A stretch of DNA of 20,440 nucleotides, taken from a virus. The notes under the pieces are model-generated. The model was not told where the DNA came from. It did not search any database and saw nothing but the letters and a program-made list of their open reading frames with translations. Below, piece after piece: positions 2,305 through 17,253 of the stretch (the stretch's first letter is position 1; each line of letters opens with the position of its first letter). The DNA is taken from IMG/VR virus record IMGVR_UViG_3300027140_000033, positions 1-20,440 of that record. One strand, written 5' to 3'. A program made the position numbers and the translations under genes.

Positions 2305-3468
2305 ATGTCTTGCGAAAGTTGCTATAATGGATGTGTTCAGACAGTGTCTGATGAATGTGTTAGATATACAGGTATAAACTATCCTGCATTAGGTGTTGAA
2401 ACAGGAGACAATTTAGTTTCTGTTGAACAAGCTATAATGAATGCTCTAGTTCCTTTACTAACTGGTACAGGAGATGCAATCACTCTTAGTGCAGGAGATG
2501 TATGTGCATTAGTTACTGGCTATCTTACAGCAGGTTTAACTCATACATCTAAAGAATGGATTACAGCTCTTTCTAAAGGAGAGTGTAATTTACAAGCACA
2601 GATTGTAGCTATTAATAATACATTAGCTATACTTAATGCTGATTATTCAATTGGTTGTCTTACAGGAGTAACTGCGTCTTCTGACACTCATGATGTTTTA
2701 CAAGCTGTCATAACAAAGCTTTGTACAACAGTAGCTGATCTTGCTGCTCTTACACTTGATGTAGATACAAACTATGTTAAGCTAGCAGACTTAGATGCTT
2801 TGATTGCAGCTTATATAGCTAGTCAAGGTGGTGGTAGTTCAAACCAACAATATTTAAAAATGGTTCCATATGTAGCATATGAATACTATGGATCATTAAC
2901 TAACTTTGATGCTACAGGTGCAGGTTTAAATGCTGCTGGATTCTATAAAGTATATTTATGTAATGGTCTTAATGGCACTCCTGATAAAAGAGGACGTGTT
3001 GCTGTTGGAGCTATTGCTAATGTACCTCCAATAGGAGTTGGCTTAGATGCTGCTGTAAATCCAGCAAATCCAGGCAATCCAAACTATGCTGTATTTAACA
3101 CAGCAGGTGCAAATACTGTTACACTTATCACATCTCAAATTCCTTCACATTCACACGCTGCCTCAGTGGTAGCATCTGGATCAATTGGAAATCATACTCA
3201 TATAGTTATGGGAGGTGGGGGTCCTGGTTCAGGAAGTGTTCCTAATTCTACACAAGTTATATCAAATGAAACTGCACAAGGTGGAAACTCTTCATATAAA
3301 ATGTTACCTGCTAGTGTTCAATCACATAACTCTGGTATAACAAGTGCTAGTGGAGCTGGACCAGTATCACTTAGTATAGCTGTTACAAATGCTAATACAG
3401 GATCTAATGCTTCTCACCCAAACATTCAACCTGTCATAGCTGCATATTATATCATGTACATTCCTTAA
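2305..3468 (+). CDS. Tail fibre / receptor-binding protein with phage tail-collar domain
   Basis: A 387-residue fibre. Seen, in order: a Cys-rich N-terminus (SCESCYNGC) followed by a motif shared with the next gene (Y21-x-G ... T33-G-D-N-L37), likely the docking segment; an alpha-helical, Ala/Leu/Thr-rich shaft (about 40-175); a flexible GGGSS joint near 175; and a C-terminal tail-collar domain marked by PDKRGRVAVGA (226-236), QIPSHSH near 278-284 and the closing NIQPVIAAYYIMYIP. Known: collar domains of this type (T4 gp12-like, also in bacterial microcystin-dependent proteins) trimerise and often bind metal through HxH motifs; two are present here (H282/H284 and H297/H299). Inferred: a trimeric host-recognition fibre. 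It opens the five-gene receptor-binding cluster. Confidence 0.88.
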   Translation: MSCESCYNGCVQTVSDECVRYTGINYPALGVETGDNLVSVEQAIMNALVPLLTGTGDAITLSAGDVCALVTGYLTAGLTHTSKEWITALSKGECNLQAQIVAINNTLAILNADYSIGCLTGVTASSDTHDVLQAVITKLCTTVADLAALTLDVDTNYVKLADLDALIAAYIASQGGGSSNQQYLKMVPYVAYEYYGSLTNFDATGAGLNAAGFYKVYLCNGLNGTPDKRGRVAVGAIANVPPIGVGLDAAVNPANPGNPNYAVFNTAGANTVTLITSQIPSHSHAASVVASGSIGNHTHIVMGGGGPGSGSVPNSTQVISNETAQGGNSSYKMLPASVQSHNSGITSASGAGPVSLSIAVTNANTGSNASHPNIQPVIAAYYIMYIP

Positions 3469-3489: not shown

Positions 3490-5439
3490 ATGGCTTGCAA
3501 TCCTGGAGATCCTTGTTACAACGCATACTATCATCCTAACGAAAACTGTAATTCACTTCCTTGTGCAACTACAGCAGATCTTGTTATATATAATGGTCCT
3601 AATCTTCCTTATACAGGAATACAAACTGGTAACAACTTAGACTGTGCTCTATCAAAAATAGATGATGCATTTAGTAATGGTGTTGTTGGTATTAATGGTA
3701 CATCTGGAACCTCTGGCTCTAGTGGTCGCACAGGTACTGCTGGTACGTCTGGTGCTTCAGGAGCTAATGGTACCAATGGTTCTTCTGGTACCTCAGGTGC
3801 TGGTGGTGCTACTGGTAGTGCTGGTTCATCTGGTACAAGTGGTGACACTGGTTCTAGTGGAACATCTGGAAGTTCTGGTAGAGAAGGTTCTAATGGTACA
3901 TCAGGTTCTGCTGGTTTAAGTGGAACTAATGGTACTTCTGGATCATCAGGAACTTCTGCAAGTTCTGGTCTTTCTGGTTCTGATGGAAGTTCTGGATCAT
4001 CAGGTACAGCAGGTACGTCAGGAGTAGATGCAACAGCAGGTACTTCAGGTCAAGATGCTACAGCTGGAACATCAGGTTCTACTGGTACATCTGCTACTGC
4101 TGGCACAAGTGCGTCATCAGGAACAAGTGGTACATCAGCTTCCTCTGGAAGTTCTGGTACTGCTGGTTTAAATGGAGATAGATATTTAACATCTTCCATT
4201 ACACCTTTAACAATAGGAAATGGTACTCAAACCTTAACTGTTGGTACAGGATTAGCTTATAGTGTTGCTCAAACAGTTTTATTATCATATGATGGTTCTA
4301 ATACAATGCAAGGATCTGTTACAAGCTATGATAGTCTTACAGGTGCCATGGTTGTTAATATAGTATCAACAACAGGTTCAGGAACATATCCACAATGGAC
4401 TGTAAACTTATTTGGGGCTGCTGGTGGTAATGGTACGTCTGGTACTAGTGCATCATCAGGATCATCTGGAACATCAGCTACAGCTGGAACATCTGCAACA
4501 TCTGGTAGTTCAGGATCTTCAGGAACAAATGGTAGTTCTGGTACCAGTGGTACTAGTAGTACAAGTGGAACATCTGCAAGTGCAGGAACTCATGGAACAA
4601 GTGGTAGTTCAGGCTCAGCAGGTACATCTGCTACAGCAGGTACAAGTACTGGTACTTCAGGTACATCAGGTGCAACTGGATCTAGTGGAGCTACAGGATC
4701 TTCTGGTACATCAGGATCTTCTGGTTCTTCTGGTTCTTCTGGATCTTCTGGTACCTCTGGTGGTACAGGTTCTCCAGGTGGAAATGGTACAAGTGGAACA
4801 AGTGGATCATCTGGATCATCTGGCTCTTCAGGATCAAGTGCAACTTCTGGAGCTAGTGGAACATCTGGCTCATCTGGATCTTCTGGATCTTCTGGTTCAA
4901 GTGGTTCATCAGTAGCACTTTCTGGAACAACTAATTATATAGGTAAATTTACAAGTGCTTCAACGCTTGGTAATAGTGGATTTGTTGATGATGGTACAAC
5001 GATTGCTACATCTGAAATTGTATATACTGGAAACAACTTTAAAACAGCAGGAATTGTACAATTTGATAATACTAATACAGGTATATACAATCAAGCTAAT
5101 AACTATACTTTCTACGCATTAACAGGACAAGGTTGGGTATCTAGTACATCTATCACAGCAACAGGATTTTTTGAGTCTTCTGATATTAGATATAAAAATG
5201 TAATTGAAACAAATCCTCAAGTAGATTTATTAGGAATAGATGTAATCAAGTTTGTAAGAACTGATGATGAAACAAATAAAGTTAGATATGGATATTCAGC
5301 TCAACAAGTACAATCAATACTTCCAGATGCAGTTACAGGAGAAGATAAACTATCTGTAAACTACATGGATGTTCATACTTTGAAAATAGCAGCATTAGAA
5401 AAACGTATTGCAGAATTAGAAGCTAAATTAAACAAATAA
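3490..5439 (+). CDS. Tail fibre with Gly-Ser/Thr collagen-like shafts and S74 self-cleaving chaperone
   Basis: A 649-residue fibre. Seen, in order: a docking segment (1-66; Y34-N-G ... T46-G-N-N-L50) shared with the previous gene; a first Gly-x-y shaft (67-229); a small beta domain (about 230-308) with SYDSLTGAMVVNI, a phage insert type I have seen often; a second Gly-x-y shaft (309-474); a beta tip (475-562); and an intramolecular chaperone (563-649). The chaperone carries S564-D-I-R-Y-K569, the Ser/Lys dyad of peptidase S74 (as in endosialidase and L-shaped fibres), GYSAQQVQ, and a final coiled coil (AALEKRIAELEAKL). Known: S74 domains fold the trimer, then cut themselves off just before the Ser. 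The shafts are nearly free of Pro and charge, unusual for collagen-like repeats. The stop overlaps the next start (TAATG). Confidence 0.92.
   Translation: MACNPGDPCYNAYYHPNENCNSLPCATTADLVIYNGPNLPYTGIQTGNNLDCALSKIDDAFSNGVVGINGTSGTSGSSGRTGTAGTSGASGANGTNGSSGTSGAGGATGSAGSSGTSGDTGSSGTSGSSGREGSNGTSGSAGLSGTNGTSGSSGTSASSGLSGSDGSSGSSGTAGTSGVDATAGTSGQDATAGTSGSTGTSATAGTSASSGTSGTSASSGSSGTAGLNGDRYLTSSITPLTIGNGTQTLTVGTGLAYSVAQTVLLSYDGSNTMQGSVTSYDSLTGAMVVNIVSTTGSGTYPQWTVNLFGAAGGNGTSGTSASSGSSGTSATAGTSATSGSSGSSGTNGSSGTSGTSSTSGTSASAGTHGTSGSSGSAGTSATAGTSTGTSGTSGATGSSGATGSSGTSGSSGSSGSSGSSGTSGGTGSPGGNGTSGTSGSSGSSGSSGSSATSGASGTSGSSGSSGSSGSSGSSVALSGTTNYIGKFTSASTLGNSGFVDDGTTIATSEIVYTGNNFKTAGIVQFDNTNTGIYNQANNYTFYALTGQGWVSSTSITATGFFESSDIRYKNVIETNPQVDLLGIDVIKFVRTDDETNKVRYGYSAQQVQSILPDAVTGEDKLSVNYMDVHTLKIAALEKRIAELEAKLNK
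3688..4176 (+). repeat. First Gly-x-y repeat shaft (about 54 triplets)
   Basis: A run of codons for Gly-(Ser/Thr/Ala/Asn)-(Ser/Thr/Ala), residues 67-229 of the fibre. Codons are varied (GGT/GGA with TCT, TCA, AGT, ACA), so this is not a recent microsatellite, although short stretches recur. It ends at GLNGD, where a folded beta domain interrupts the shaft. Confidence 0.93.
4414..4911 (+). repeat. Second Gly-x-y repeat shaft (about 55 triplets)
   Basis: Residues 309-474 of the same fibre. Towards the end it becomes purer, with stretches of Gly-Ser-Ser built from GG(T/A)TCTTCT units around 4715-4760 and 4860-4905. These near-identical 9-base units could allow slippage or unequal recombination that changes fibre length. 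Only one Pro (GSPGGNG, near 4773) is present. Confidence 0.93.
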
Positions 5440-7097
5440 TGAGTTGGAATACATTACTACCTAATCAGTGTATATCATTTAATAATTTACAAGATGCTTG
5501 TAATCAATTATTCTTTCTTTCAACTCAGCCTATTCCTGTAAGTACTGAACAAATTACTAAACAAGACTTTGAAGATTATATACTTGTGCCTGATAGTGTA
5601 GCTAACTATCCTGCTTTTGTAAACAAAACTCAAAATCAACTTGTTGTAAAAAGTGACGTTGCAATATTTGGAGATGCTATATTAACTCCTAATTATGGTA
5701 TATCTTTTACAGGAATATCTTATTATGATTTTTCTACTCAAATACCAGTGGGAATTTGGAGTCTTCCTGCATCTTCAACTCAAAATACTGAATACTATTA
5801 TAGCTTTGGTGTTAGTGGTTTCAATTTATTATATGTAGAAGTTGATGGTACTAGCACTAGCCCATCAGGATATTTTAGCGTAACTCTATCTGTAAATGGA
5901 AATGTAGTTTCTGATGGTACTTTTTACTACACAAGTGGACCACAACCTGCTATAATTCCTCTTAATCCTGAAATTATATATGCTCCTAATAGTATAGAAT
6001 TAACTATTATTGATGGACAAGCAACTCCTATAAATTTTACTTTCCAAGATCAGAATGGAGGAATTCCTATAGTAGCAGTATCTGCAAGTAGAGGATCTGG
6101 TCAATATCAAATGGTAGCAACTGGATCTAATGGTAGTAGAATGAACTTCTTAGAAGGAAGTTTATATAGATCTATTGATTATGGTGCAACATGGCAAAAA
6201 TCTTCTAATAACACATTATACTATTGGGATAGAATAGCAATGTCTGATACAGGTCAGTATATGATGGCTGCTTCATTACAAGGTCCATTAATGTTATCTA
6301 GTAACACTGGTGCAAGTTTTGTTGATATAACTACTAGAATACGAGGTAATGCTACAGAATATTTTGAAGGAGTAGGAATGTCTGGAAATGGACAGTATGT
6401 AATAGTTTGTTATGAAACTGGTGTTGGAGGTGCTCAGACTGCTCAGACAAAGATTTCAAATAACTATGGAGCTGCTGGATCTTGGTCAGTTGTTACGCAA
6501 GCATATGAATACTATATACAAGGAATAGCAATAAGCAATGATGGACAATATATGTATCTTTCATTTACTGCTAATGGTCTTGCAGGATATGTGCTGAGAT
6601 CATCTGACTATGGTGCAAGTTGGCAATCAATAAGTGTTGGAACTACGTATGTAAGAGATGTTAGTTGTAGTAGTGATGGTTCAACTGTTGTTGTAACAGG
6701 TGCTGTGCCAAACTATGGTGCAGAATATTTAACAAGAGGCTTTATGTTTACATCTACTAATTATGGAGCATCTTATACTGGTATTGAAACTGGAAACTCT
6801 TACTTACGAAACTGGTACAGAGTTGGACAATTATATACATCTACCTCTCCTTCTGGATATGGTACTGTAATGATTTATTATCCTCCTGGCACTAGTCAAA
6901 CTGCTTTCCCAACACAAACAGCTCCTGTTGGTAGTAATACTTTAGGATCTGTTGTTAATGGTAGCATTAGTGGTATGGGAGAAAGGAAATTTACAGACTA
7001 TGCAGTAGGTGGTACAGATGGACCATATAGATTGATTGGATCAACAACTGGATTATTTAGATCTACAAATGGAGGAAGCACATGGACTCAACTTTAA
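5439..7097 (+). CDS. Asp-box (BNR) beta-propeller tail protein
   Basis: A 552-residue protein translationally coupled to the fibre before it (TAATG, one-base overlap). Seen: an N-terminal segment (1-75) with FNNLQDAC and EQITKQDFEDY, a pattern common at the start of Bacteroidota phage tail proteins; a beta-sandwich region (about 76-205); then a propeller with six Asp-box-type turns, SIDYGATW (245-252), SSNTGASF (287), SNNYGAAGSW (340), SSDYGASW (388), STNYGASY (439) and STNGGSTW (542-549). Between them are repeated (M/I)S-(D/G/N)-x-GQY strands (MSDTGQY, MSGNGQY, ISNDGQY). Known: Asp boxes mark sialidase, sortilin and related propellers, which bind glycans or proteins. I see no sialidase Arg triad, so binding rather than hydrolysis is favoured. 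Likely a receptor-binding or tail-tip component. Confidence 0.85.
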   Translation: MSWNTLLPNQCISFNNLQDACNQLFFLSTQPIPVSTEQITKQDFEDYILVPDSVANYPAFVNKTQNQLVVKSDVAIFGDAILTPNYGISFTGISYYDFSTQIPVGIWSLPASSTQNTEYYYSFGVSGFNLLYVEVDGTSTSPSGYFSVTLSVNGNVVSDGTFYYTSGPQPAIIPLNPEIIYAPNSIELTIIDGQATPINFTFQDQNGGIPIVAVSASRGSGQYQMVATGSNGSRMNFLEGSLYRSIDYGATWQKSSNNTLYYWDRIAMSDTGQYMMAASLQGPLMLSSNTGASFVDITTRIRGNATEYFEGVGMSGNGQYVIVCYETGVGGAQTAQTKISNNYGAAGSWSVVTQAYEYYIQGIAISNDGQYMYLSFTANGLAGYVLRSSDYGASWQSISVGTTYVRDVSCSSDGSTVVVTGAVPNYGAEYLTRGFMFTSTNYGASYTGIETGNSYLRNWYRVGQLYTSTSPSGYGTVMIYYPPGTSQTAFPTQTAPVGSNTLGSVVNGSISGMGERKFTDYAVGGTDGPYRLIGSTTGLFRSTNGGSTWTQL

Positions 7098-7117: not shown

Positions 7118-8026
7118 ATGCTAACAAACAACGCTTTAGTAACATATACAGATTTAACAACAATGTTAGTTCCAATAACAGGATTGACTCCTCCTACTGG
7201 AAATCAAATTGCTACTAAATCATTTATTGATACATACTATCGTGTAGATACTGCATCAAGTCCTTATTCTACATATAGTGCAAATAGATGTCCACCATAT
7301 CAAACTATACAACCTCAAGTTCTTCCTTACTTAGCTTGTTGGAATATTACAATTCTTCCTTATTCTGAATTAAATTGTCAAGGTAACTATAACAGTTTTG
7401 AAACTTGGCAAATATCATTACTAGATCAGTATGGAAATGCATATTTTACAGACCAAAATTATTCATTTAATATTGGATATGATTATACATGGCAAAGTGA
7501 TATACCTCCATATTCTGAGTCAGGAAGTAATGTTACTACAGTAAATATATCACCAGGACAATGGCAAGGATTTGCTTCGTTTACTATATACGCTGTAGAA
7601 ACATGTCCTTATTCATCAGCATGTGATGGTAGTTGTTTTAGCACTAATACTAACATAACTGAACTAACTAATACAACTGGTGTACCTGGAGGTTGTGCAT
7701 TACCAACTCCAGCTACAATTACATATTTTGTACCTAATGCATTTATACCTGAAAGTAGTAATCCTGCTGTTAATGTAGTTAGAATTTATAAAGTAATCAA
7801 TTCAACAGCTATTGAATTAGTTTATTCAAACTATCCAAATATGACTTGGGTATTTGCTACTGGTGGATTCGTTCCATATTCAGGAAATAATTCTGTATAT
7901 GTTCCTTGGAATGGTAGATTAAACAATTCAGGAATGCTTTCAAGCTCTACTGCTTATGGTTACTCATTTGCATTAAACGATGGCAGTGGAACTATAATAA
8001 CTGGAGCAATATTACTTCTTCGATAA
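7118..8026 (+). CDS. Tail-associated protein ending in a T9SS/gliding C-terminal-domain-like fold
   Basis: 302 residues, starting at ATG 7118, 20 bases after the previous stop. Seen: an N-terminal segment with NQIATKSFIDTYYRVDTASS (29-48), similar in position to the QITK segment of the preceding gene; a Cys-containing beta-rich middle (about 60-195) with CPYSSACDGSC; then a C-terminal region of 99 residues opening F204-VPNAF and closing PWNGRLNNSG ... YGYSFALNDGSG ... GAILLLR. That opening, the W-(N/D)-G turn, the Y-x-Y strand and the final xLLR resemble the gliding-motility/type IX secretion C-terminal domain of Bacteroidota proteins, although the usual acidic GDGxND loop is missing. Phage proteins are assembled inside the cell, so a structural reuse of the fold is likelier than secretion. 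Could be a host-surface binding tip. Confidence 0.72.
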   Translation: MLTNNALVTYTDLTTMLVPITGLTPPTGNQIATKSFIDTYYRVDTASSPYSTYSANRCPPYQTIQPQVLPYLACWNITILPYSELNCQGNYNSFETWQISLLDQYGNAYFTDQNYSFNIGYDYTWQSDIPPYSESGSNVTTVNISPGQWQGFASFTIYAVETCPYSSACDGSCFSTNTNITELTNTTGVPGGCALPTPATITYFVPNAFIPESSNPAVNVVRIYKVINSTAIELVYSNYPNMTWVFATGGFVPYSGNNSVYVPWNGRLNNSGMLSSSTAYGYSFALNDGSGTIITGAILLLR

Positions 8027-8038
8027 AAACAAACCAAT

Positions 8039-8683
8039 ATGACAATATTAATAACACTTACCCTAGCAGGATCAGATACAGGTCCATTCAACTTATATTC
8101 AAATGTAGATGGTTACACAACAGCATTTGAAACTGGTGTTTCTAGAGCAGCTCTTGTTGCTGGATATACTTCAATTTTAGTCCCAGATGGAACTACAGAA
8201 ATCTTAGTAAGATCTACAGGAGTTTGCCAAAGAGATCTTTATCTATCTGTAGCTGGAGCCCCTGCAACAACCACCACTACCACAAGTACGTCTAGCACTA
8301 GCACTACAAGTACCACAACTACAAGTGCACCATTTAGTTGTATCACAGGTGATAGAAACGCTATTGCTACATGTTCTAATGGAGAGAGTGCTCAATTTAC
8401 AATAGCTCTAGGATATACAGCAGCAATCATTCCAGGTGGATACTATTACAGTGGAAGTGGTACAAGAACATACTATGCATACATTTATGATAGTACAGAC
8501 AGTATAATGTTGTATAGTCTAACATACACACAAGTAGGATCTACTCCTGGTACTTGGACTACATTTGGAACAGGAAACACTCTAACAGCAGGTACTTACT
8601 ACCTACACTTAAACACAGTAAACTGTTCAATCAATGGCTCTGGTACGTTCACTTTACAAGTGGGAGACTGCCAACCAGTTTAA
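8039..8683 (+). CDS. Modular decoration protein: TGPF module, Thr linker, beta-sandwich
   Basis: 214 residues in three parts. Residues 1-74 form a small module with TGPFNLYS (14-21), AFETGVS (29-35) and a late Cys63, shared with the starts of 17265 and 18096. Residues 77-96 are a Thr/Ser linker. Residues 98-214 form a beta-rich domain (YYYSGSG, LTAGTYYLHL, a final CQPV) reminiscent of bacterial pre-peptidase C-terminal or lectin-like sandwiches, a weak match by eye. Known: modules joined by Thr-rich linkers are frequent in virion proteins of Bacteroidota phages. Inferred: a surface decoration that adheres to host or mucus glycans. It is the last gene before tandem terminator hairpins, so it closes the receptor-binding transcription unit. 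Confidence 0.72.
   Translation: MTILITLTLAGSDTGPFNLYSNVDGYTTAFETGVSRAALVAGYTSILVPDGTTEILVRSTGVCQRDLYLSVAGAPATTTTTTSTSSTSTTSTTTTSAPFSCITGDRNAIATCSNGESAQFTIALGYTAAIIPGGYYYSGSGTRTYYAYIYDSTDSIMLYSLTYTQVGSTPGTWTTFGTGNTLTAGTYYLHLNTVNCSINGSGTFTLQVGDCQPV
8267..8326 (+). repeat. ACN (Thr/Ser) codon repeat linker
   Basis: Twenty Thr/Ser codons, mostly ACA, ACC, ACT and AG(T/C), joining the TGPF module to the C-terminal sandwich of the decoration protein. At the DNA level it resembles the linkers at 15613-15648, 16816-16947 and 17487-17507, so these tracts could serve as short patches of homology for recombination between genes. Confidence 0.85.
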
Positions 8684-11333: not shown

Positions 11334-12290
11334 ATGGCATATTATTACAAATACAACTTTGTCTCTCCTGAGCCAATTTACTCTATTGTTAAAGAAGAGT
11401 TAAAATCTTATTTTGACACAGGAGCTGTTGATGATTTGATGTTTCCAACTTATTTAGACAAGTGTCTACAAAAGATGGGTAGGTCAAGTTATGTCATTGC
11501 TGAACAAACATTAGATATTTCTGGATATGAAGCTAGACTTCCTGACAACTTCTTTGCTGTTAGAGAAGCTTGGATGTGTACAGAGATTCCTCAACGTCCA
11601 TATCAAACAGCTAACTCGTTCTATTCTCAAGCTGCATCTCAGACTACTATTCAAGTCTCTCCTATAATTAGTGGTGGAGCTCCTTGTACTAATCCACAAT
11701 GTGTAACAGGATGTCCTACGTGTATGCCTGATATTATCCAAGCTGTATATAAAACCAATCAACAGATAGCTAGAGGTATAAGAAAAGAATATCTATTAAA
11801 ACCAGGTAATATATCTTGTCAAGGCAAGTGTGATGTAAGTTATACAGACGCTTGGCAATTCTATTCAACTGCTCCTCCTGTACACGAGTTCACTCCAGGA
11901 AGTGCTGGTTATGATAGCTTTGATATTAGAGACAACAAGTTTGTTACTAACTTTAGCTGTGCTATAGTTCACATGATATTTTATGCTACAGACTATGATG
12001 CTGTAGGTAATCAATTGATTCCTGATAACTATCGTGTCAGAGAATATATAGAAGCATTCCTTAAATATAAAGTTTTTGAAACCTTATCTAATCAAATTAA
12101 TGATGAGACATTCAATCAAATACAAGCCAAGTTAGCTTACTATAAGCAACTTTCAGAAGAAGCCTTTATCATGGCTTACACTGAGATTAAGAAGCAAGAT
12201 CCATGGACAAAGCAAAGAAGAGTAAGAAATGACTTACAACGTTTTGCACAATATGAATTACCAAACAGAAGCTCAAGATATGGCAGATAA
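11334..12290 (+). CDS. Tail ring/stabilisation protein, P22 gp4-like (crAss ring protein R1 type)
   Basis: 318 residues, starting 6 bases after the previous stop. Seen: SIVKEELKSYFDTGAVDDLMFPTYLDKCLQKMGR (about 17-50) and the strand pair EARLPDNFFAVREAW (63-77), the pattern of the P22 gp4-like connector family in crAss-like phages. These are followed by a Cys cluster (C118, C123, C127, C130), a second pair (C162, C166), SFDIRDNKFVTNF near 195-207, and a long C-terminal helix region with the YREYIEAFLKYKVFETLSNQ type. Known: this protein binds below the portal and seats the next tail part. In the human gut crAss phage the homologue is, as I recall, the ring next to the muzzle, and here the muzzle gene follows directly with an 11-base overlap. 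The Cys cluster probably binds metal. Confidence 0.85.
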   Translation: MAYYYKYNFVSPEPIYSIVKEELKSYFDTGAVDDLMFPTYLDKCLQKMGRSSYVIAEQTLDISGYEARLPDNFFAVREAWMCTEIPQRPYQTANSFYSQAASQTTIQVSPIISGGAPCTNPQCVTGCPTCMPDIIQAVYKTNQQIARGIRKEYLLKPGNISCQGKCDVSYTDAWQFYSTAPPVHEFTPGSAGYDSFDIRDNKFVTNFSCAIVHMIFYATDYDAVGNQLIPDNYRVREYIEAFLKYKVFETLSNQINDETFNQIQAKLAYYKQLSEEAFIMAYTEIKKQDPWTKQRRVRNDLQRFAQYELPNRSSRYGR

Positions 12291-15200
12291 CCAAGAAGGA
12301 CAATCTAACATAAAACAAGAATATAATCTTGGAAGAATTGGACTAGATATGGACTCTTCTGTAAATCAAATACAGAAGGGAAAACTTTCTTATGCCTTAA
12401 ACGCAGCATTGGAAAACTTTGATGCTAATTCTGTAAACTATCAGAATGAGCCAAGTAATGAATTTTGTTTAAACTTTCCTGCAAACTATCATGTAATTGG
12501 TAACCATTTTATTCAAGAGAAAAATAAACACATATTCTTTTTAGCTAATCCTGAAACAGGAGATAGTGAAATAGGATATATGGATAATAATGACTGTATC
12601 TACCACACTTTGTGTAGTGAAACAATCACAGGAGAAACAGTATGTGCCAACTCTAAATGTTTAAACTTTGATATAAACTATCCTATTCACAAAGCTGTAC
12701 ACAAGATTACAAACTGTACAACTGAGATTTATTGGACTGATGGATTGAATCCAAGAAGATATATTAATATTGAGCAAGTTCCATATATTACAACATATGT
12801 AGGTAGTCAAAACTGTGATCCAGTTGTTACTGCTGTACTTGATTGTAATAAGTTAAAAGTACAACCTAACTTCTCTATTCCTAATATAGATGTTACTGGA
12901 ACACCTGTAGGTGGAGATTTAGTGGCTGGTACATATCAGTTTGCTGTTCAGTATTGTAATGCTTCAGGAGATGGATATACATCTTACTACTCTGTAACTA
13001 ATCCTACATCTATTGCAAACACAGATATTACTACACCTGACTTCAACTATCGTGTTGGAAAGTCTATTGCATTAACTATTGGTGATGTAGATATTACAGG
13101 ATACTTTCAATACTTTAACTTAGCTGTTATTAAGACTATTAATAGTGGCACTAGTGTAGAACTTGTAGCAACATATAAAATTCAAGATAAGGTAACAACA
13201 GTTATTTATACAGGTCAGAATGTAACTCAGATCCCTTTAAGTCTTGGTGATATATTAGAAAAGTTTCCTTACTATGACATTGCCCAAGATGTTACAAGTG
13301 TACAAGATTATATAGTTTGGGATAATCTTACTTCTGTTGATAGAATTAACTATCAATCAATTGCTAGTAATATTACCTTACAATGGGAAACATATAAGTT
13401 ACCAGCAGGTAATGACTACTCAGATCCTTTCTATACAGCTAACCTTAGAGGATATTTAAGAGATGAAGTATATGCATTTGAGATAGTATTCTTATTAGAT
13501 AATGGTAAACAAACTGATGGCTTTCATATTCCTGGTAGAGTTAAAAATGCTCAAGAGTTAGCTCAACCAGATGTGACCACAGCAAATCCAGACTATGTTG
13601 GAGATGGTTTACCACAGCCTTATTGGAAGATATATAACACTGCAAACGTACTTACTACATACCCTGCACCTACAACTAATGCTGGGAAGATAGGAGATGC
13701 ATATCCTTATCAATCTGGAGAATTTTCATACTGGGAATCTGATGAAGAATATCCTTGTAATGTAGATGTATGGGGAGATCTTGCTGGTACAAAGATTCGT
13801 CATCATAAGTTTCCTGATGTATTGGTATCTCCTTATTTTGAGACTCCTCCTATTACATACGTAGCTGGACAGATATCACCAGTGATGCAAACTTCTAATC
13901 CTATCTATCCAATAGGTGTTAAAATAGATGTACAACAAGTAGCATTCTTAATTCAAACATCTAGTTTAACAGATGCAGAAAAAGCTTCAATTGTTGGATT
14001 TAAAATAGTGAGAGGTAATAGAAGTACAAACAAATCTATTATTGCTAAAGGTATATTAAGAAATGTAGGTAAGTACACTAGACAAGGTACAGACTTTTAC
14101 TATCCTAACTATCCATATAATGACCTTAGTGTTGATCCTTTCTTACTAGAAAAGAGTAATTCGTACATGTCTGAGTGTGATACATTTACAGTGGCAGCTA
14201 CAGTTGATGGTACATATCAATATACAGATTGTTATACAGGTGAGGTAACCAGTGCTAACTTTACTACATCTACTAGTAAAATTTATTCTCTTACGCTCCC
14301 TGTTGTAAATTCTGGTACAGCTACATTTACAAATGTTACACTTGCTACATATGTTATTTCTGCACAAAATGCATGTAATGGTATATTTAGTATTCAGCCT
14401 GCTCCTACATTTCAATATACAGATCCTGCAACTGGTGCAATTATAAACATCACTGTAGCAAAAGGAACAACAGAAACAGTCAACTCATTGGGAGCTCCTA
14501 CATTTGTATCAGGCTGTGATCGCTATACTATAGTATCAAGCAGTAAGGTAAACGTTGATGCATTTCCAAAAAACTTAGATGGATTCAATAATACTGAATC
14601 TCCATATAGACAAGTATTTAACTCACCAGAAACATCTTTTGGACAGCCTACATTAGGTAATGTTCTTAAATTAGAAAGTGTTTTATTTGGTGGTGGTAGG
14701 TCTCACTTTGTTCAAGTACAGAAGCATGCCATGTATAAGCTTCTTACTAGACAAGCTCAGATTGATGCTTTGAACTCTAGTAAAAAAATTGCTGATCTAG
14801 GAGGATTTAGTGCTGTAGCATTCTTTACAGCATATCAAACTTACTTACAGATTTATGTAAATGGTATCAGTAGAAAAAACTTTGCACAATCATTTAACTC
14901 TATCTCTAGCTATGACTATAGTGTAGATGTTCCTAATGATCAAGGAGTTAAACAAAGGCAACTTGATAGATGCCAGTATGTTTTTCCTGGTGTACAGAAC
15001 GTAGGTGATATTCATGATCTTAACAACTGGAATAGAGAGTCTTCAGTTTATACAAAGACTATTGAGACTAGACCTACAGTTGGTATTGTTATACCATTGC
15101 CTTATCCAAATCAAAGTCCTTCATTATATACAGGTGGTGTAAGTCAGATATCTGATAACTCAAGATTTACCATATCTCAAAAAGATAGTTGTGGTGCCCC

Positions 15201-17253
15201 TGAGTTTCAACATGATATCAAAGTTGTATCTTACTATGCATCAATAAAGACTATTAATAATAATCAATGGGGACAAATATATACATATCAAACTATTGAT
15301 ACTGGATTCCAAAGAATATTTGATGCTCTTCCAGCAAATGATACTGAGGTAATATTTGGTGGTGATACATTCATTGGTAAGTTTGGATTCAAAACTAAGC
15401 TTCCTTTCTTTATTGATAATAGAGTGAATGCTCCAGATGATTCTGATATTTACTATGATGAGTTAGGTAATGTAGCCTATCCACAATATTGGTATTCAGC
15501 TAGATCTGAATTATCTGATTACTATGTAGGTGCTACTTTGATGAAGAATCTTATCTCTACCAAAGCACACTATTTAGACTGTCCTAATGATAGTATAGTA
15601 GATAACATTAATACTACCACTACTACCAGTTCTACAACTGCTGCTCCAGGAACTATAGTAGCAGGTTCACAAAACTATATCTATGATGGTAAGATGTATT
15701 TGTTTGCTTATGGTATTCCTTACTATTATGTAGAGAGCTCTATAAATGTAGACTTACGTCAAGCATTTAATAATTTAGAAGGTGACTTCTACCCACACGT
15801 GAGCTCAGGTATTCCTGATACTTGGTTCCAAGAAAGCAAAGTGCCTATTGCTCTAGATAATACATATTACTATAATACTACTTATTCTAAACAGAATACA
15901 GAGAACTTCTTTTCTCATTTACCTTCAGACTGGATAAAACAACTTTGTTTTACATACTTCCCATTCAGAGCTATATACTCTGATCCACAAGAAAGTTATT
16001 CTGATAATAGAATTAATAGTTGGTTGATATATCGTCCAATATCATTCTTTGACTTCCCACAAAACTATGGTAAGTTAATATCCTTAGATGGTATTCAGAA
16101 CAGAGCTACATTAGCTAGATTTGAGAATAAAACATTACTATATGGTAATATGCTTACAATCAATACAAGCAATCCTCAAGTAGCCTATTTAGGTAACCCT
16201 TCATTGTTTGGAACTACACCTCCTGTAGATTATGCTGAAACAGACTTAGGATATGTAGGATGCCAAAATAAATTCTTGCTTAAGATACCCAATGGACAAA
16301 TAACAATAGATGCCAAGAGAGGTCAGATATTTTTAATTGTAGGTACCCAAGCTATAGATATCTCAGGATATGGTTCTGGTCTTAATAGATTCTTTACAGA
16401 CCATTTAGCATTTGAAATATTAAGATACTATCCTACAGTTAATATAGATAATCATTTCAATGGTATTGGTTTACATGGTGTATTTGATAGTAAGTTTGAG
16501 AGAATAATCATAACTAAGTTAGACTATATCCCTCAGCCTAATAAGCAGATATACTATGATGATATTGCTCAAAGGTTTTATATAAATCAACCTGTAGCTG
16601 GCAATACATCAGTGAAGACATATGTAAACTTAACAGATATAAACTATTTCTGTAATAAGTCTTGGACTATATCCTTTAACTTAAATACTAAGTCTTGGGT
16701 GAGTTTCCATACTTATCTACCTAACTTCTATGTAGGAGAAAATAACTTCTACTATTCTGGATTGAATGAAGGCTGTAATTTAACTGCAGTGGCTGTTGTA
16801 GAAATACCTTCTCCAACTACCACAACTACAACTACAGCAGCTCCATTAGAATGTGCTTTAAATGGTACAGCAGTATATATTCCACCACCAACTACCACGA
16901 CTACTACAACCCCTACTCCTCCTCCTACAACAACAACTACAACAACCCCTCCTCCTGCAAATTGTACATTAACTGCAGGTAGTGTTCAAGTGAGTTCTTT
17001 ATTGTATTCTGAAGATAGATTTCATTTTAGCAATAGTACTATTGGAACATGTATTGCTGTAGCAAGTCCTGCTTACTATGAACCAGGAGCAACGTTTTTT
17101 GATCCTGTAGTAAAAATATTCCAAGATCCAGAAGGTTTAGTTCCTTTTCCATATACTTATGTAACTGATACATTCTTTCCACCTCCTACAGCTATATATA
17201 ACTATAGTAGCACTACAGGAGTTGTAGGATCATATGCAAGTTCATGTTTATAA
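12280..17253 (+). CDS. Muzzle-type tail protein with Thr-linked decoration domains (apparently lacking its usual C-terminus)
   Basis: I choose ATG 12280 (MADNQEG, ATGGCA like many starts here), overlapping the ring gene by 11 bases; an ATG at 12229 would add 17 residues and a 62-base overlap. The product is 1657 residues. Seen: an opening with GLDMDSSVNQIQKGKLSYALNA (20-41) and VNYQNEPSN, typical of crAss-like muzzle or phage propeller proteins; long beta-rich repeats with Ig-like inserts; a Thr linker in the middle (1112-1123); propeller strands ending SWTISF ... SWVSFHTY (1461-1478); then three linkers of exactly seven Thr (1513-1519, 1538-1544, 1550-1556) and a final Cys-bounded beta domain (C1562 to the end). 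Known: the muzzle closes the tail tip in crAss-like virions. The expected continuation LWRH... appears instead in 18096-18962, implying a split protein. Confidence 0.82.
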   Translation: MADNQEGQSNIKQEYNLGRIGLDMDSSVNQIQKGKLSYALNAALENFDANSVNYQNEPSNEFCLNFPANYHVIGNHFIQEKNKHIFFLANPETGDSEIGYMDNNDCIYHTLCSETITGETVCANSKCLNFDINYPIHKAVHKITNCTTEIYWTDGLNPRRYINIEQVPYITTYVGSQNCDPVVTAVLDCNKLKVQPNFSIPNIDVTGTPVGGDLVAGTYQFAVQYCNASGDGYTSYYSVTNPTSIANTDITTPDFNYRVGKSIALTIGDVDITGYFQYFNLAVIKTINSGTSVELVATYKIQDKVTTVIYTGQNVTQIPLSLGDILEKFPYYDIAQDVTSVQDYIVWDNLTSVDRINYQSIASNITLQWETYKLPAGNDYSDPFYTANLRGYLRDEVYAFEIVFLLDNGKQTDGFHIPGRVKNAQELAQPDVTTANPDYVGDGLPQPYWKIYNTANVLTTYPAPTTNAGKIGDAYPYQSGEFSYWESDEEYPCNVDVWGDLAGTKIRHHKFPDVLVSPYFETPPITYVAGQISPVMQTSNPIYPIGVKIDVQQVAFLIQTSSLTDAEKASIVGFKIVRGNRSTNKSIIAKGILRNVGKYTRQGTDFYYPNYPYNDLSVDPFLLEKSNSYMSECDTFTVAATVDGTYQYTDCYTGEVTSANFTTSTSKIYSLTLPVVNSGTATFTNVTLATYVISAQNACNGIFSIQPAPTFQYTDPATGAIINITVAKGTTETVNSLGAPTFVSGCDRYTIVSSSKVNVDAFPKNLDGFNNTESPYRQVFNSPETSFGQPTLGNVLKLESVLFGGGRSHFVQVQKHAMYKLLTRQAQIDALNSSKKIADLGGFSAVAFFTAYQTYLQIYVNGISRKNFAQSFNSISSYDYSVDVPNDQGVKQRQLDRCQYVFPGVQNVGDIHDLNNWNRESSVYTKTIETRPTVGIVIPLPYPNQSPSLYTGGVSQISDNSRFTISQKDSCGAPEFQHDIKVVSYYASIKTINNNQWGQIYTYQTIDTGFQRIFDALPANDTEVIFGGDTFIGKFGFKTKLPFFIDNRVNAPDDSDIYYDELGNVAYPQYWYSARSELSDYYVGATLMKNLISTKAHYLDCPNDSIVDNINTTTTTSSTTAAPGTIVAGSQNYIYDGKMYLFAYGIPYYYVESSINVDLRQAFNNLEGDFYPHVSSGIPDTWFQESKVPIALDNTYYYNTTYSKQNTENFFSHLPSDWIKQLCFTYFPFRAIYSDPQESYSDNRINSWLIYRPISFFDFPQNYGKLISLDGIQNRATLARFENKTLLYGNMLTINTSNPQVAYLGNPSLFGTTPPVDYAETDLGYVGCQNKFLLKIPNGQITIDAKRGQIFLIVGTQAIDISGYGSGLNRFFTDHLAFEILRYYPTVNIDNHFNGIGLHGVFDSKFERIIITKLDYIPQPNKQIYYDDIAQRFYINQPVAGNTSVKTYVNLTDINYFCNKSWTISFNLNTKSWVSFHTYLPNFYVGENNFYYSGLNEGCNLTAVAVVEIPSPTTTTTTTAAPLECALNGTAVYIPPPTTTTTTTPTPPPTTTTTTTPPPANCTLTAGSVQVSSLLYSEDRFHFSNSTIGTCIAVASPAYYEPGATFFDPVVKIFQDPEGLVPFPYTYVTDTFFPPPTAIYNYSSTTGVVGSYASSCL
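16816..16947 (+). repeat. Three heptathreonine (ACN)7 linkers with Pro-rich spacers
   Basis: Three runs of seven ACN codons (residues 1513-1519, 1538-1544 and 1550-1556 of the muzzle gene) with spacers LECALNGTAVYIPPP and PTPPP. Codons inside each run differ (ACT ACC ACA ACT..., ACT ACC ACG..., ACA ACA ACA ACT...), so the constant length of seven is not simple copying of one DNA unit. The same seven-Thr run occurs in the next gene at 17487-17507. Confidence 0.88.

Follow-up and report, generated by a model that had tools for sequence, protein, structure and literature searches.

A diverged T9SS type-B-like domain as an exchangeable C-terminal end of a tail-locus protein in a crAss-like phage

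Why would a protein encoded among the tail genes of a phage end in something that resembles a sorting domain of the Bacteroidota type IX secretion system (T9SS), and what might such an ending do? The question is raised by a 302-residue protein encoded in a 20,440-nucleotide stretch of viral DNA (IMG/VR record IMGVR_UViG_3300027140_000033), the whole of which is referred to here as the window. The window carries a gene for a crAss-like muzzle protein (12229 to 17253, + strand; PF25731, E 9e-34, scanned from 12274), and the same family scored over its cut-off in three related records, G001, G002, and G003. The match to the muzzle family indicates that the window comes from a crAss-like phage. 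To our knowledge, little has been established about which receptors crAss-like phages use, especially those outside the gut.

The gene in question (7118 to 8026) lies in a cluster of fiber genes. A tail-fiber-like protein is encoded upstream (2305 to 3468; PHROG, 1.5e-12), followed by a collagen-like tail fiber with an S74 chaperone-like end (3490 to 5439, + strand; PF01391, 2.7e-32; PHROG tail fiber, 3.8e-29) and a BNR/Asp-box repeat protein (5439 to 7097, + strand; PF15899, 1.4e-6), such that the gene in question is next but one to the collagen/S74 fiber gene. PF13884 scored just under its cut-off of 22 on the collagen-like fiber (20.2 bits, E 7.6e-4) and over it in the contigs L135, L002, and L004. 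Downstream lie the gene at 8039 to 8683, an exonuclease-like gene (PHROG), virion structural genes (PHROG), and the muzzle gene. We note that the product of 3490 to 5439 has a long GTSGSSG-type collagen-like repeat and 649 residues, compared with 658 in the near-identical L001, and that in the collagen-like fibers of L002 and L004 GPQGPTG stretches are mixed with GTSGSSG ones. Elsewhere in the window, 1306 to 1908 and 2022 to 2297 are adjacent frames, the first of which is listed from a GTG and its L002 counterpart from a later ATG, and the sole named phage record with a relative of 11334 to 12290 is Leptolyngbya phage Lbo-JY46 (cyanobacterial host; 26% identity, E 3e-18).

The 302-residue product of 7118 to 8026 (+ strand) is a modular tail-locus protein and a probable virion adhesin, as suggested by the open reading frame, its homologs in other contigs, and an ortholog in contigs L130 to L136. 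Residues 1 to 195 (7118 to 7702, + strand) constitute an N-terminal module that is conserved among sister contigs and presumably attaches to the virion. The last 99 residues (residues 204 to 302; 7727 to 8023, + strand) constitute the domain that resembles the T9SS type-B, or gliding, C-terminal domain. The domain opens with FVPNAF, the first residue of which is residue 204 at nucleotide 7727, and continues in order with LVYSNYPNMTW, VPWNGRLNNSG, YGYSFALNDGSG, and GAILLLR; every string singled out in the preliminary description was found at the place and in the order given there. Alignments identify PWNG (7904 to 7915, + strand) as the conserved W-x-G turn, YGYSF supplies a Y-x-Y strand, and GAILLLR (8003 to 8023, + strand), identified by sequence, HMM, and pairwise alignment as the terminal strand and basic end, is followed directly by the stop codon at the extreme C terminus. 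The site at which a PNGDGxND loop would be expected, FVPNAFIPESSNP (7727 to 7765, + strand), is collinear with FSPNGDGIDDTW of L135 and lacks the acidic residues of that loop. The absence of an acidic GDGxND loop had likewise been pointed out earlier, and FIPESSNP indeed stands in its place.

Curated models were silent on the domain: no Pfam or NCBIfam family was reported at an E value of 10 or less, no PHROG family matched, and a PDB sequence search gave a best E value of 0.61 to an unrelated entry. Such silence would suit a chance resemblance, in which the conserved-looking residues occur by coincidence in a phage domain rich in beta structure. Because the curated models gave no match, sets of type-B domains were collected with a type-B consensus, 80 from bacterial genomes (the best of 557 confirmed) and 32 from viral contigs. 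Residues 195 to 302 scored 12.6 bits against an HMM of the 80 bacterial domains, and the best of 1,000 shuffled sequences scored 7.2. The window domain was not separated from shuffles by the viral-domain HMM, whether two viral proteins encoded next to a fiber gene, L044 and L045, were left out (5.4 bits versus a best shuffle of 10.9) or included (9.3 versus 10.0); an HMM of L044 and L045 alone gave 18.1 bits versus 12.1. When the window domain was ranked among 672 real open reading frames from the fetched loci, all of those scoring above it carried a PN-x-D/N motif (124 with the bacterial HMM, 124 with the joint HMM, and 79 with the L044/L045 HMM). In tblastn searches of 50,697 phage records, the whole protein had no match at an E value of 1 or less, the domain gave weak matches to unrelated proteins only (E about 1 to 9), and the L135 and L044 proteins had no match; a window-domain pattern run against the genome collection returned 67 stretches and no relative.

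Intermediate sequences were found when the window domain was aligned with L044 and L045 and contigs were scanned with the result. The scan recovered seven sister crAss-like contigs (L130 to L136) that encode two distinct proteins from an orthologous 308-residue gene, and these proteins end in an intact type-B domain. In L135 and L136, for which the neighboring genes were listed, gene order is the same as in the window, and residues 1 to 195 are 51 to 52% identical to the window base. PF13585 (CHU_C) scored over its cut-off of 27 in both of these scanned sisters (33.0 and 35.1 bits), and TIGR04131 scored under its cut-off of 35 (25.4 and 25.3 bits). Exactly one PF13585 match was present in each of G001, G002, and G003, the records that hold L135, L136, and L132, respectively. 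The acidic loop was intact in seven of seven contigs, which represent two distinct sequences, and was also present in L044 and L045, and alignments placed a common VYVPWNG in the window, L135/L136, and L044/L045.

Comparison to the sister domains was decisive. An HMM of the L135 and L136 domains scored the window domain at 35.7 bits (E 4e-10; best shuffle, 11.6), and global pairwise alignment to the L135 domain scored 106, compared with a mean of −12, a standard deviation of 10.8, and a maximum of 42 for 2,000 shuffles. The alignment ran end to end with identity in 33 of 111 columns and set FIPESSNP of the window opposite FSPNGDGIDD of the sister, a collinearity which indicates that other residues took the place of the loop and that it was not excised. 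The MAFFT alignment made for structure prediction, which had 83 rows and left out part of the available domains, instead set an 11-residue gap at the lost-loop region. With an intact ortholog and shuffles so far below the observed scores, the intermediates refute chance resemblance, to which we assign a negligible probability. The domain resembles the type-B domain (TIGR04131; PF13585) in homologous sequence, C-terminal position, W-x-G turn, Y-x-Y strand, and terminal G-x-hydrophobic-x-R strand, and differs in that it has no PNGDGxND loop, falls under all curated cut-offs, and sits on a protein without a Sec-like N terminus encoded in a phage fiber locus. Because the loop and a signal peptide are absent and the cut-offs were not reached, we treat it as a diverged homolog and not as a member of either family. 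We conclude from HMMs, pairwise shuffles, and sister-phage intermediates that the C-terminal 99 residues share common ancestry with the T9SS type-B sorting/gliding C-terminal domain, in support of the resemblance proposed in the preliminary description.

Structure prediction was compatible with that relationship. AF2 run on the single sequence gave an unusable model (pLDDT 33), and a model built with the 83-row alignment showed seven strands in residues 201 to 302 (pLDDT of 67 to 92 in ten-residue blocks) and an N-terminal part with block values of 34 to 76. VIA-align matched the predicted domain to a PorZ chain (5m11; Z 7.3, 85 residues aligned, 3.1 Å), PorU (6za2; Z 6.6, 76 aligned, 3.9 Å), and the RgpB C-terminal domain (5ag8; Z 6.1, 77 aligned, 3.4 Å), all of which were tied in Z-score with other Ig-like domains. 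Foldseek found nothing in the PDB at an E value of 0.001 or less with the alignment-based model. The top viral matches, in BFVD, were A0A6J5NJX2 and A0A6J5L8Z9 (E 3.7e-5 and 4.2e-5), proteins of uncultured Caudovirales phages named "Gliding motility-associated, C-terminal domain," which have 187 and 199 residues versus 302 for the window protein. Thus, structure comparison did not place the domain in an unrelated phage fold, the outcome that would have spoken against the earlier assignment, but since the alignment behind the model included bacterial type-B domains, the agreement in fold is consistency and not independent proof.

The preliminary description had further proposed that the phage captured a domain of a host surface protein. 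The L135 domain matched 23 of 395 Bacteroidota genomes at an E value of 1e-5 or less, and its best host match, at 41% identity, was found in Chitinophagaceae bacterium LY-5 (genome G010). A tree was built from 36 rows selected by hand (5 tail-locus domains, 22 host domains, and 9 of the 30 cargo-like phage domains described below). The five tail-locus domains, from the window, L135, L136, L044, and L045, grouped apart from host and cargo domains (support 88/84, not starred), and the window copy sat on a very long branch of 3.38. The grouping is biased because the shared VYVPWNG pattern was what led to L130 to L136, and no claim of a single capture was rested on it. Based on the match of the sister domain to host proteins, we conclude that the domain was likely captured from a Bacteroidota host.

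Comparison of closer relatives revealed that the domain is not a fixed part of the protein. An exact copy of the 302-residue protein is encoded in L001, and homologs were found in five full-length contigs and one truncated contig, the copy in L005, which ends at residue 155. Identity to the window base over residues 1 to 195 is 88% in L002, 69% in L004, 76% in L010, and 75% in L011, and the L002 and L003 proteins are identical to each other. In L002, L003, L004, L010, and L011, however, the base is followed by a TTTTTT linker and, at the same joint, by an unrelated 165-residue end, for which no Pfam, NCBIfam, or PHROG match was obtained in the one sister scanned (L002). At the DNA level, the window and L002 are 82 to 98% identical in 60-base blocks up to approximately codon 195, and no identity remains thereafter. 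We conclude that the C-terminal head has been exchanged between phages over a conserved base. The locus is a clear case of a phage lineage trading a domain, likely captured from a host, for an unrelated head at one joint.

Nearby genes vary in a similar way. The gene at 8039 to 8683 (+ strand) is, by comparison with L002, a second modular gene with a conserved N terminus and a swapped C terminus: 83 of the N-terminal 95 residues are identical to those of L002, and the remainder is unrelated. Sister phages differ in whether they carry the BNR gene: the window, L001, L011, L135, and L136 have it, and L002 to L005 and L010 lack it between the same two genes. Exchange of the head, the swapped C terminus encoded by 8039 to 8683, and presence or absence of the BNR gene together are the behavior of a host-recognition region. 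The 8039-to-8683 product contains a Thr/Ser-rich linker and a C terminus unrelated to either sister compared (L002 and L135), and the BNR/Asp-box proteins of L011 and L135 have another Thr-rich linker toward the end, together with a tail that contains cysteine. A shared adaptor between residues 1 to 75 and the BNR neighbor was considered and rejected, as HMMs gave 0.8 to 3.2 bits, under best shuffles of 8.5 and 10.3.

A T9SS domain on a phage protein could also mean that the protein is T9SS cargo, exported to the surface of the infected cell, for example to exclude other phages, and not built into the virion. Phage-encoded T9SS cargo is known (PMC7468147). Moreover, 30 of the 32 type-B proteins from viral contigs had an N-terminal hydropathy maximum of 2.3 or more, taken as the highest 9-residue window within the first 50 residues, a measure of hydropathy only. 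By that measure, these 30 proteins look like secreted T9SS cargo, and phage-borne type-B cargo looks common (the L014 to L043 proteins). The two exceptions were L044 and L045 (1.02), and the maxima were likewise low in the window (1.64) and in L135 and L136 (0.89). The type-B gene of L044 and L045 directly follows an S74 fiber gene, which in L044 has tail-fiber PHROG matches. We conclude that two phage groups carry, as judged by their predicted N termini, a type-B domain in a fiber-locus protein without sign of Sec export, and gene position suggests that in both groups, those of the window and of L044/L045, the proteins are virion parts. Since the protein has no Sec-like N terminus and its gene lies among those of the virion, a role of the domain as a secretion signal is unlikely here. 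In addition to the low hydropathy and the tail-locus position, the domain is swapped in L002 for a head with no T9SS family match, and we regard export as cargo as very improbable for the window protein. In L044 (3695 to 4582) and L045 (3695 to 4579), the type-B-like domain is internal and followed by about 100 residues; the L044 record also has a weak match, under the cut-off at 20.1 bits, to the end of the crAss muzzle model.

The reading that we favor, and hold to be probable, is that the 302-residue protein serves as a tail adhesin of modular build, in which the base stays constant, the head is exchangeable, and one of the head types is a captured host domain. Residues 1 to 195 would form the base fixed on the virion, and recombination between phages would swap the C-terminal head. 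One head type would be a T9SS type-B sorting domain of Ig-like fold that came from a surface protein of Bacteroidota, intact in L130 to L136 and loopless in the window, and the head would be the binding part that touches the host surface. Absence of the loop and the long branch of the window copy suggest either that its target has changed or that it has become a plain structural platform, and we consider the two equally possible.

Structural decoration could also account for the whole domain: the beta-sandwich would space or stiffen the tail tip or stick weakly to glycans, and its T9SS origin would no longer matter. Such a role has been proposed for other Ig-like domains on phages. Fraser et al. 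reportedly described Ig-like domains on structural proteins of tailed phages, which, like the window domain, are beta-sandwiches common to cellular proteins and hung on virion proteins. The window domain differs from them in that it was borrowed from the signal which hosts themselves use for secretion and surface anchoring, and in that it is one head among several that can be exchanged. Loss of the loop, the long branch, structure matches scattered across many Ig-like domains at tied Z-scores, and the unrelated head of other sisters are each consistent with decoration. The head is nevertheless the part that is exchanged, as expected of a recognition part, and the loop is intact in both distinct sequences of L130 to L136; on balance, decoration seems unlikely, though less so than the other alternatives to a modular adhesin.

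If the head of a modular adhesin does bind the host surface, the target of the intact version may be conjectured from how hosts handle type-B domains, and PorP/SprF-like proteins would be the most natural candidate. In hosts, PG1035 is bound by PorP and SprB by SprF, such that PorP/SprF-like outer-membrane barrels hold type-B domains, probably at the cell surface (PMC9143113); type-B domains pair with specific shuttles (PMC12618676); and phages of Flavobacterium columnare have been suggested to use receptors that belong to the gliding machinery (PMC7345892). As host shuttles bind type-B domains and gliding-machinery receptors have been suggested, an intact phage head could grip a free shuttle. 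PorP_SprF matches over the cut-off numbered seven and eight in the two Bacteroidota genomes examined, and none was found in six phage records; thus, the phage would need the barrels of its host. Against secretion-signal mimicry, in which the head docks on PorP/SprF-like shuttles as its receptor, stand the missing loop of the window domain, the finding that secretion or recognition by the shuttle depends on each of five conserved motifs in the type-B domain of SprB (PMC12618676), and the chance that a shuttle is already occupied by its own cargo. The missing loop and the SprB motifs bear equally on the suggestion in the preliminary description that the domain mimics or binds T9SS-exported adhesins or the gliding machinery, which is conjectural. 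We therefore consider such docking, argued by analogy, rather improbable, and the broader proposal that Bacteroidota phages of more than one lineage dock a tail-borne secretion-and-anchoring signal on PorP/SprF-like proteins, with the loopless window copy as a case of changed target, slightly more doubtful still. A tail head derived from the hosts' type-B domain nonetheless points to concrete candidate receptors, namely, PorP/SprF-like barrels and the gliding machinery, and, if docking were true, a secretion signal would double as a receptor-binding domain.

T9SS domains have been encountered in phages before. Cryophages encode T9SS cargo with type-A sorting domains (PMC7468147), and crAss-BACON phages have open reading frames with T9SS sorting domains near head genes (PMC6949934). 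Both resemble the window in having T9SS C-terminal domains in the genomes of Bacteroidota phages and variable cargo and differ in that they concern secreted cargo or neighbors of head genes, whereas the window protein has no signal peptide and is encoded in a fiber-gene cluster (PMC7468147, PMC6949934). Phage-encoded T9SS cargo is already known; searches of open-access full text turned up no report of a T9SS domain that serves as an exchangeable part of a tail. Among the other phage type-B proteins, a class of mini-proteins of 93 to 123 residues consists of scarcely anything beyond a hydrophobic N terminus and an intact type-B domain (L040 and L043, 3929 to 4249; L024, 3926 to 4204; L020 and L021, 3872 to 4237; L022, 3869 to 4237), and these could saturate or decorate the host T9SS, perhaps against other phages. 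Finally, three and four matches to the type-B consensus were present in LR756502.1 and LR745206.1, respectively, which are huge uncultured phages of about 640 kb.
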